A DNA stretch of 64,000 bases, from positions 806,001-870,000 of the forward strand of contig NZ_AP019823.1 of the NCBI RefSeq assembly GCF_007990525.1, in the 5' to 3' direction. The stretch's first letter is position 1, and every line of letters starts with the position of its first letter. A model generated the notes under the pieces. It did not search any database, had not been told where the DNA came from, and was given only the letters and a program-made list of their open reading frames with translations. The stretch is from Leptotrichia hofstadii (GTDB taxonomy: Bacteria > Fusobacteriota > Fusobacteriia > Fusobacteriales > Leptotrichiaceae). Made by a program: the position numbers and the translations under genes. Below, piece after piece: positions 6,835-25,020 of the stretch.

Positions 6835-7502
6835 TAAATTAAATTTATTCTTTGTAATCAGTAATTAAGTTATTTTTTAAGTTATTTCTTTTATTTTTAT
6901 GTTTTTTTATCTCTTTAAAGCAAGGGAAATCAATCGCCATTTCCCTTTATTTCGCAATAACAGTTATTTTAATATATTTAAATAATGACATATTAAAGAG
7001 AATAGCGAAAGTGCTATGCACTATCCCTGGCTCGTCTAAGCATTTTTTTGAAATATTCCCAAATTTTATTTGGGAAAATAGTCTAAACATTTATTATTTG
7101 GGTAAACCTGGATTACTATGAAATTGAAACTCGCTTTTTAATCAAAGTTATTATCAACTCTTAAACTGATTATAACTTAAAAGTTTTGAAAAAGCTCAGA
7201 CAGTCAATTTCATTCCAAAAAAATCACGACAATTTTAGTTTAATTATAACAGGTAATTTTATTAAAATAAAAATTAATCCTATTTTTTCTTTAACAAAAT
7301 AAACTGTTTTAATTTTAATAAACCGACGGAGCTTTTATTTGTTCAACTACGACTGTTTGACGACTGGAAGGAGGAGTTTCGGAGTTGGGCAAATAAAAGT
7401 CGTAGTCTAGCCATAGGTTGCAGGATTTGCGGCAATGAGCAATCCTGCGAAAATATAAAGAGAAGGAACAAATAAAAATAGTAAAAACTGTTATTAACAA
7501 AC
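6835..7502 (-). repeat. long dispersed repeat, copy 1 (inverted relative to copy 2)
   Basis: This non-coding block matches the reverse complement of 24462-25020 over most of its length. The stretch 7315-7502 is nearly identical. The flanking part keeps segments such as 'ATCCCTGGCTCGTCTAAGC' and 'AAGCAAGGGAAATCA' but carries two extra inserts here (about 6950-7020 and 7060-7120). On the minus strand it holds a 10-bp hairpin (GCAGGATTTGC with GCAATCCTGC, about 7448-7420) and a second two-part hairpin (about 7400-7332). One stem base differs from copy 2 (near 7382). A 61-residue open frame inside it has no ribosome site and is not kept in copy 3. It fills the gap between the aldolase gene and the next gene. 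Confidence 0.85.
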
Positions 7503-7584
7503 AACTTTAAAAAAATTTAGACAATAACTTAATTGAATGTTTAGGAATAAATTTATATAATTCAGTAAAAAGAAAGGAAAAATT

Positions 7585-18950: not shown

Positions 18951-19249
18951 AACAGCAATTCGTCTTTTTCATTTTAAAAAAAAACTATCTTTACAAGTAT
19001 AAATATGAGACTTAATCTTCAATTTTGGAAGAATACAAAATAACGGAGAATTAAATTATATTAAAGATAACAGGCAAAATAGAGATGAAATTCTATAACA
19101 ATTAATTTGGTAGTTTTGTGAATCTAATTTTTAAGTATCCATACAAGATTTTCATAATAGAGTTATTTAATAGCTAATTCATAATCATTAAATTATTTTT
19201 TAGATATTTTGATTAATAAATATTTTTTCATATTATTATGTTTTTTCTT
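18951..19249. other. AT-rich intergenic stretch with no recognised feature
   Basis: Between the toxin promoter and the structured repeat I see no open frame with a ribosome site and no stable hairpin. Confidence 0.4.
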
Positions 19250-19375
19250 TTTATTTCCGTAGGATTGCTCATTGCCGCAAATCCTACAACCTATGGCTAG
19301 TCTACGACATTTTTCTGCACTGACAAAAAACTCGCTATGCTCAGACAGTTTTGTCAGCACAGAAAAATGCTCCGA
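19250..19375 (+). repeat. structured dispersed repeat, copy 3 (hairpin part only)
   Basis: It shares 'GATTGCTCATTGCCGCAAAT' and 'AACCTATGGCTAG' with the long repeats at 6835-7502 and 24462-25020. Hairpin A is GTAGGATTGC (19259-19268) with GCAAATCCTAC (19277-19287, one bulged A). Hairpin B is CATTTTTCTG (19308-19317) with CAGAAAAATG (19360-19369), an internal CA/CA loop, then CTGACAAAA (19320-19328) with TTTTGTCAG (19349-19357). The stem sequences differ from copy 2 but the pairing plan is the same. The outer 400-500 bases of the long copies are absent here. Confidence 0.8.
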
Positions 19376-19486
19376 CAGGTTATTTATACTAGGCTTTATT
19401 TGAAGAAAATTATATTTTAATTATTTGAAATTATTAGATTTATACCCCTTATCAGAAAAGTTTGTAATAAATCCGATATTTAAACC

Positions 19487-19532: not shown

Positions 19533-19585
19533 TTCAAATTCATTGTTTTTAAATCGCCGTTATTCATTTCATCTGTTCCGTATAG

Positions 19586-19765
19586 CTAGTATGTTCTGTT
19601 TCCGTATCTATCCTTGCAGTAATACTCACCATTAGCCCTCCTATAACATGTTTCTCCTCTTTCAGCAGCTCTCCGATCTGCATTTCTCCAAATGTCTATA
19701 TCCTCTGCAGTACATCCCATAATTGCCATAGTAAAAATAATCATCAGTAAAATTTTCTTAAACAT
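19586..19765 (-). CDS. 59-residue lipoprotein with a Cys-x9-Cys motif (copy A)
   Basis: ATG 19765 is preceded by AAGGAG. The peptide starts MFKKILLMIIFTMAIMGC: a lipoprotein signal with a lipobox-like 'IMGC', so Cys18 would be lipidated. The mature part is short and basic and ends 'CYRRANGEYYCKDRYGN', with two cysteines 10 residues apart that could form a disulfide. A close paralogue lies at 36953-37132 with the same length, the same start and end, and a related 3' untranslated region and terminator. I recognise no family; it could be a small envelope lipoprotein or a lysis-type peptide. Two retained copies in one window argue that it is a real gene. Confidence 0.75.
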   Translation of the reverse strand: MFKKILLMIIFTMAIMGCTAEDIDIWRNADRRAAERGETCYRRANGEYYCKDRYGNRTY

Positions 19766-19957
19766 CGCATATCATCTCCTTCTGTTTTAAATATCCATGT
19801 CAAATTATCATTTCATTTTATGTATTAACTGCTTATGTTTTTATATTTTTATTGTACAATATTTTATGTTGGAATACAAGGTGTTTCTGTATTTCTTCAA
19901 TTTGTTATTTTCAAAATTTTATTTATATTGAAAACGGAATTGATTTTGTATTATTTT

Positions 19958-24355: not shown

Positions 24356-24461
24356 TTTTCTGTTTATCCCCCTAACTTATTTTTTTATCTTTATCTTAAT
24401 TCTAGTTATTAAATCTTTTCCTTAAATTCTTCAATTAAGTTAATTTCTAAATTTTTTATAT

Positions 24462-25020
24462 TTTTTGTTAATAACAGTTTTTACTATTTTTATTTGTTCC
24501 TTCTCTTTATATTTTCGCAGGATTGCTCATTGCCGCAAATCCTGCAACCTATGGCTAGACTACGACTTTTATTTGCCCAACTACGAAACTCCTCCTTCCA
24601 GTCGTCAAACAGTCGTAGTTGAACAAATAAAAGCTCCGTCGATTTATTAAAATTAAAAAAGTTTATTTTTGTTATAATCCAAGCCTTTTTAATAAAATTA
24701 CCTGTTATAATTAAACTAAAAAGTGTCGTGATTTTTTTGGAATGAAATTGACTGTCTGAGCTTTTTCAAAACTTTTAAGTTATAATCAGTTTAAGAGTTA
24801 ATAATAACTTTGATTAAAAAGCGAGTTTCAATTTCATTTCAAAAAAATGCTTAGACGAGCCAGGGATGCAAGGGAAATGGCGACTGATTTCCCTTGCTTT
24901 CAAAAGATAAAAAAACATAAAAATAAAAAGAAAAAACCTTTATTAACCAAAAAAATTTAAAAAATAACTTAATTTAATAAATTAACTTAATTGATGATTA
25001 CTAAAGAATAGATTTTAAAT
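24462..25020 (+). repeat. long dispersed repeat, copy 2
   Basis: Reverse-complement partner of 6835-7502. Hairpin A is GCAGGATTGC (24517-24526) with GCAAATCCTGC (24535-24545). Hairpin B is CTTTTATTTG (24566-24575) with CAAATAAAAG (24624-24633), an internal CC/AA loop, then CAACTACGA (24578-24586) with TCGTAGTTG (24613-24621). The following part, through 'ATTGACTGTCTGAGC' and 'CTTAGACGAGCCAGGGAT', matches copy 1 without that copy's two inserts. It fills the gap between the start of polC and the terminator of the FadL-type gene. Nothing in it looks coding. Confidence 0.85.

Follow-up and report, generated by a model that had tools for sequence, protein, structure and literature searches.

A dispersed, strand-specific folded element of Leptotrichia with a conserved apical mini-hairpin and relatives in at least nine phyla

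Among described classes of repeat, the REP, BIME and REPIN sequences come nearest to the element reported here. REP palindromes span 20-40 bp and carry an unpaired GTAG or CGTC tag (PMC3733652), and REPINs are tied to RAYTs, the REP-associated Y1 transposases (PMC3116915); the CGTC repeats reportedly have no dedicated transposase and form inverted dimers, and are short and tagged with stems of 8-9 bp (PMC3733652). The element described here, from Leptotrichia hofstadii, resembles REP, BIME and REPIN sequences in comprising dispersed extragenic hairpins in many phyla, with frequent inverted doublets or heterodimers and a single-strand structure (PMC3733652, PMC3116915). It is unlike them in its length (~90-250 nt), its 20-nt apical motif, its multi-segment stem and its pseudoknot, and also in having a stem sequence that is free and covaries and no association with RAYT. 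Neither REP tag is found as such—the GTAG of hairpin A is paired, and reads GCAG in many copies, and the CGTC of the tail becomes CGAC in type B. Inverted doublets, as expected of REPs and REPINs, are present; a RAYT gene flanked by the repeat, the mark of the GTAG class, was not found. Because the size, tag and RAYT association of REPs are all missing, we consider that the element works like the REP type, and we do not file it as one.

The window, by which we mean the whole 64,000-nucleotide stretch analysed, holds two copies that a sequence-only reading had placed at 24517-24633 and 19259-19369, and the positions of the copies, their arms and their loops proved exactly as claimed (Table 1). 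Its description of a dispersed, intergenic and non-coding element also holds: there is a third copy in the window, a search with the 121-bp element recovered about 45 related places in the organism's own 2.6-Mb genome, and relatives of the 24517-24633 element occur in 11 of 13 genomes of the genus Leptotrichia, where the element spans ~117-125 bp across both hairpins. Types A (24517) and B (19259) are two subfamilies with a common hairpin A and common linkers; type C shares their layout and has different stems, and the 58-nt insert that splits its apex (24762-24819) holds AAGTTAT/ATAACTT arms of its own. In a contig of Leptotrichia sp. oral taxon 879 (L216), linker, tail and outer stem are identical and the inner stem differs. 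Two further observations concern the surroundings of these copies. At ~19570-19830 on the minus strand lies a small ORF-like stretch with the motif TATAGCTAGTATGTTCTGTTTCCGTA, which recurs beside other genomic copies (L019, L021). Separately, in three genomes (G007, G008 and G010; loci L344, L345, L347 and L348) a similar element cluster adjoins the 19958-24355 gene in inverted orientation, which suggests repeated insertion or a local inversion there.

Table 1. Copies of the element in the window, with their parts (positions count from the first letter of the window)
Feature	Position	Strand	Details
Type A copy, hairpin A	24517..24545	-	stem GCAGGATT/AATCCTGC, loop GCTCATTGCCGCA; letters of the structured strand
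Type A copy, linker between hairpins A and B	24546..24565	-	AACCTATGGCTAGACTACGA; near-invariant in the genus
Type A copy, hairpin B	24566..24633	-	outer stem 24566-24575/24624-24633; tandem wobble 24576-24577/24622-24623; inner stem 24578-24586/24613-24621
Type A copy, apex (type A form)	24587..24612	-	minus strand 5'-CTGTTTGACGACTGGAAGGAGGAGTT-3'; variant of the pan-bacterial apex CTGTYTGAGCRNAGCGAGTT
Type A copy, conserved tail	24634..24641	-	CTCCGTCG read on the plus strand
Type B copy	19259..19369	-	hairpin A 19259-19287; linker 19288-19307; hairpin B 19308-19369; apex 19329-19348
Type B copy, hairpin B arms	outer 19308-19317/19360-19369; inner 19320-19328/19349-19357		
Third copy, type A	7332..7448	+	inverted relative to the 24517 copy; 99% match, G000:C1:813330-813450
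Type C element	24725..24897	+	architecture as type A; tail-to-tail with the 24517 copy
Type C, hairpins	hairpin B arms 24731-24750/24829-24848; hairpin A 24868-24897		
Type C apex	24752-24761 ... 24820-24827		CTGTCTGAGC ... AGCGAGTT; split by a 58-nt insert
Composite doublet, type A facing type C	24406..24837		91% to G000:C1:813118-813560
Composite doublet, second copy	7118..7560		A-C doublet is one unit, present twice in the window
MITE-homologous region around the type B copy	19148..19484		homology to the carrier MITE; terminal repeats decayed

The central claim of the sequence-only reading, that the stems keep pairing under selection, is borne out both in the genus and across phyla, where pairing lies far beyond the controls. 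Folding energies, calculated as RNA, are far below those of dinucleotide shuffles on both strands (z -4.9 to -7.4). In 31 distinct genus copies, compared with a control in which the 3' letters were shuffled 500 times, 96.6% of cells are paired against 84.0%, both sides have changed in 108 cells against 38, and the covariation score is 0.375 against 0.159, a value matched in 0 of 500 shuffles—although relatedness inflates these counts, the A and B blocks being inherited, and the cross-phylum test is the stronger one. Sliding the partners by one to three columns makes the pairing signal collapse. The internal loops described as 2+2 (CC/AA and CA/CA) do sit at the same place in the two copies, but on the minus strand they are tandem G.U/G.T wobbles; similarly, inner pair 4 reads A.C on the plus strand in 18 of 28 type B copies and is a wobble on the minus strand. 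A true mismatch occupies inner pair 6 in most type A copies, making the perfect inner stem at 24578-24621 exceptional for that type. Uncompensated single stem changes, named beforehand as the observation that would count against selection on structure, are common among genus copies, yet pairing overall stays far above controls.

True compensatory changes do occur: in hairpin A (GT/AC <-> GC/GC, with one intermediate copy that has G.U on the minus strand), at an outer pair (C-G <-> A-T between species) and in the apex (AC/GT <-> GC/GC). The difference between types A and B, which had been read as compensation of this kind, instead reflects the swapping of old paralogous modules and no series of compensatory point changes. 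No intermediates bridging the two types were found among the sampled copies. In genome G012, one hairpin-B module was compared over eight near-identical copies, mostly lying in a doublet. A ninth place (L361) has matching flanks, but between them stand a type A apex and an inner stem unlike that of the eight; with the inner hairpin swapped inside otherwise near-identical sequence, modules are exchanged whole. Types A and B are thus two old, wholly different paired modules swapped as units, alongside the true compensatory pairs.

Beyond the genus, at least nine phyla have hairpins capped by the apical motif AACTCGCTnnGCTCARACAG; in a scan of named genomes, the matches listed include Bacteroidota, Bacillota, Pseudomonadota, Desulfobacterota, Nitrospirota, Nitrospinota, Cyanobacteriota, Patescibacteria and Fusobacteriota, several of them from metagenome bins, such that individual phyla could be misassigned. 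Within Fusobacteriota the apical sequence AACTCGCTnnGCTCAnACAG occurs in 26 of 98 genomes (10 genera), and its reversed control never. Because the cross-phylum elements were collected via the apical motif, its fixed letters are conserved by construction, whereas the stems and two free letters are not. Of 127 distinct inner stems, 103 keep at least 7 of 8 inner Watson-Crick pairs, against 6 when arms are swapped between elements; in 107 stem clusters, mutual information reaches 0.40-1.05 bits at each of the eight pairs (null maxima no higher than 0.24), with all four pair types in use. Such strong covariation is normally a sign of an important RNA or of a single-strand signal that is recognised. 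The element is located on chromosomes and is nearly absent from viral contigs, phages and ordinary plasmids—E. coli and phages gave no match, the motif was found in 15 of 2.9 million viral contigs, and plasmid matches to the Variovorax element were confined to replicons of at least 260 kb that are predicted to be non-mobilizable.

One strand carries the structure. For the 24517 and 19259 copies this is the minus strand, on which the apex reads 5'-CTGTYTGAGCnnAGCGAGTT-3'. The minus strand folds better in 111 of 122 elements, by a mean of 8.4 kcal/mol, compared with 56 of 116 control stretches from the same loci; where G.U is forbidden, 100 of the resulting mismatches are wobbles on the minus strand and 39 on the plus strand (p=2e-7), and the trend toward minus-strand wobbles is also seen in the genus. 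Gene orientation does not account for this strand bias: relative to neighbouring genes, copies occur both ways round. The search had left two letters open; on the structured strand the first of them is always G or A (139 of 139) and the second any base, and the apex is therefore GC-RNA-GC. The loop first described as invariant is conserved as an apex, but it is itself a small hairpin within the covarying unit, namely a GC-RNA-GC mini-hairpin with GA on either side. Variants with other stems still form hairpins (GTGC-ATA-GCAC, GGC-GATA-GCC, GCC-GAA-GGC, AC-GAA-GT and GCAC-GTTTA-GTGC), and the apical stems covary (GTGC/GCAC, GGC/GCC, GCC/GGC, AC/GT, GCAC/GTGC). The GA flanks are placed as they would be for tandem sheared G.A pairs. 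Extraordinary stability is documented for DNA mini-hairpins in which two G-C pairs close a GNA or GNNA loop; GCGAAGC melts near 78 C (PMC4686876). The apex resembles the d(GCGNAGC) mini-hairpins in its GC-(G/A)NA-GC form, its free middle base and its place on the structured strand. That motif is known in isolation (PMC4686876), whereas in the element it forms a conserved cap with GA on both sides. GCGNAGC is also enriched elsewhere on the structured strand, with 27 occurrences where 5.4 are expected and the opposite strand has 4.

In many phyla there is a second hairpin upstream, whose loop forms covarying, pseudoknot-like pairs with the linker (CTTGAT/ATCAAG, CTTGAA/TTCAAG, CTTGAC/GTCAAG, GTGCCC/GGGCAC and TAGCC/GGCTA). 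Pairing of at least 6 bp between the loop of hairpin 1 and the linker is found in 33 of 91 elements, compared with 6.2 for swapped linkers. The linker at 24546-24565 is the counterpart of the one engaged by the hairpin-1 loop in other phyla, and in Leptotrichia at most 3-4 bp of such pairing are possible. Pseudoknots, GA-flanked internal loops and a strand-specific preference for wobbles are typical of RNA, and a structured non-coding RNA, made from the structured strand as a trans-acting molecule or processing signal and dispersed by mobile DNA, would explain them; Rfam, moreover, is incomplete. We nonetheless consider such an RNA unlikely, though a serious candidate. Scans of the window copies found no promoter above chance placed to read the structured strand and no terminator above chance, orientation relative to neighbouring genes is random with dozens of copies per genome, and the GATA and ANA triloop variants with 2-bp stems fit the rule for stable DNA mini-hairpins rather than GNRA. 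No family of Rfam 15 matched at its gathering score; the one candidate, mir-5881 (24.8 bits against a gathering score of 87), was put down to a near-perfect hairpin matching by chance. The same scans bear on transcription terminators or 3'-UTR stability hairpins, which intergenic hairpins near gene ends might bring to mind and which we regard as very improbable: there are no U-run terminators, both orientations are used equally, and termination would require neither a conserved apex nor a pseudoknot.

Many of the genus copies lie inside a terminal-inverted-repeat MITE that ends in TACTAAACCCCATTTAAA and has the usual MITE features—terminal inverted repeats, 3-bp duplications, AT-rich and non-coding interiors, and several lengths. 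The terminal repeat has 108 genomic matches (reversed control 12), and there are 54 two-ended MITEs of 99-434 bp. Identical 3-mers, mainly TTA, TAA and TGA, flank 24 of the 54, only moderately strong evidence for a 3-bp target duplication given the AT-rich flanks. Both hairpin modules are absent from 34 of the 54, so that the MITE is the carrier and the structured module its cargo; in other genera and phyla, unlike a MITE, the module lies outside such elements. No intact copy of this MITE was found in the window. The family is abundant in the genome that holds the window (G000; for example L126, L136 and L137), with several unrelated interiors, one of them a CAAGGGGTCTTGACCCCTTG hairpin. An IS of ~0.9 kb with ends TTAGACCTGTTCGATAAC occurs at L379 (G000:C1 about 84.0-84.9 kb) and L373, and AATAGACCTGTTCGACAAC, similar to those ends, lies within the MITE at L137, a resemblance that suggests a nested origin. 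As a DDE parent of the MITE, PF05598 gave no match in the organism's own genome, and none of 25 DDE_Tnp_1 loci (PF01609) was bounded by the MITE repeats.

That the element is mobile or carried, as proposed from sequence, agrees with this carriage and with the 19259 site, at which G001 has a copy with matching flanks and G007 and G009 have none. The structures might be the palindromic interiors of MITEs, folding without function; quasi-palindrome correction, through template switching, would keep their arms complementary, and a DDE transposase, IS5-like or other, would spread them. Genus copies within MITEs bearing TNA duplications and the whole-hairpin exchange at L361 fit such an origin. Correction, however, rewrites one arm from the other and should give no wobble asymmetry, whereas the two strands differ as described above; it also does not explain why apex, linkers and pseudoknot stay fixed in phyla whose flanks are unrelated, and the majority of MITEs lack the module. 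We therefore give this explanation a low probability.

Close neighbouring loops are arranged tail-to-tail in 16 of 20 pairs, which, together with a strand-specific fold and a chromosomal rather than phage or plasmid location, recalls REP, BIME or REPIN elements moved by a RAYT, the transposase that the sequence-only reading had proposed to look for. A RAYT as helper is not supported. Genomes G007, G009 and G010 have no Y1 match despite 24, 19 and 16 exact loops, and a loop lies near 0 of 31 Y1 loci, on which grounds RAYT/Y1 was rejected as mobiliser; the missing unpaired tag, the greater length and the lack of replichore bias count further against it, and we think a RAYT system improbable here. 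The ends of IS200/IS605 elements and PATEs are likewise strand-specific single-stranded hairpins, but the element shows no Y1 link, no replichore bias and no pair of hairpins at element ends. From copy positions and strands set against GC skew in the organism's own genome, ~24 copies lie in one replichore sense and 22 in the other, and lagging-strand targeting of the IS200/IS605 kind is thus not seen. Nor is there a common neighbour gene: 20 flanking proteins from many phyla belong to unrelated housekeeping, regulatory or metabolic families, or to none. In the open-access literature, the apical sequence was not found in any bacterial repeat and we met no clear description of the element, which may have been described under another name.

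Structure, strand bias, dispersal, tail-to-tail doublets and, in the genus, carriage by MITEs are all directly observed. The reading that we prefer, and on which we are evenly balanced, is that of a non-coding, non-autonomous, dispersed, REP-like element whose functional form is one folded single strand, with a partner acting in trans. Its fixed parts would be the GC-RNA-GC mini-hairpin with GA flanks, the internal loop 5'-CTGTYTGA/GAGTT-3', the linkers and, outside the genus, the pseudoknot, while the stems would need only to pair, their letters being free. A nuclease, a recombinase or a structure-binding protein acting in trans may recognise the folded strand, as is thought for REP and REPIN hairpins, and genus copies probably also multiply passively as MITE cargo. 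We slightly favour single-stranded DNA over RNA as the folded molecule, noting that RNA predicts the G.U preference and the pseudoknot equally well. No helper gene was found, and this counts against the preferred reading together with a Y1 distribution that does not track the element, the unrelated housekeeping neighbours, and the absence of replichore or gene-orientation bias.

The element is real, strand-specific, selected for structure and far wider than the window. More tentatively, it may belong to a pan-bacterial superfamily of strand-specific folded elements with a GNA/ANA cap and GA flanks, anchored by a pseudoknot, whose single-stranded DNA would be recognised by a widespread cellular or mobile enzyme and which would persist on chromosomes without a dedicated transposase. 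Strong covariation in a repeat of at least nine phyla, with neither an Rfam family nor a transposase partner, suggests an overlooked folded-strand system, for which the fixed apex, linkers and strand provide exact probes with which to find the binding partner.
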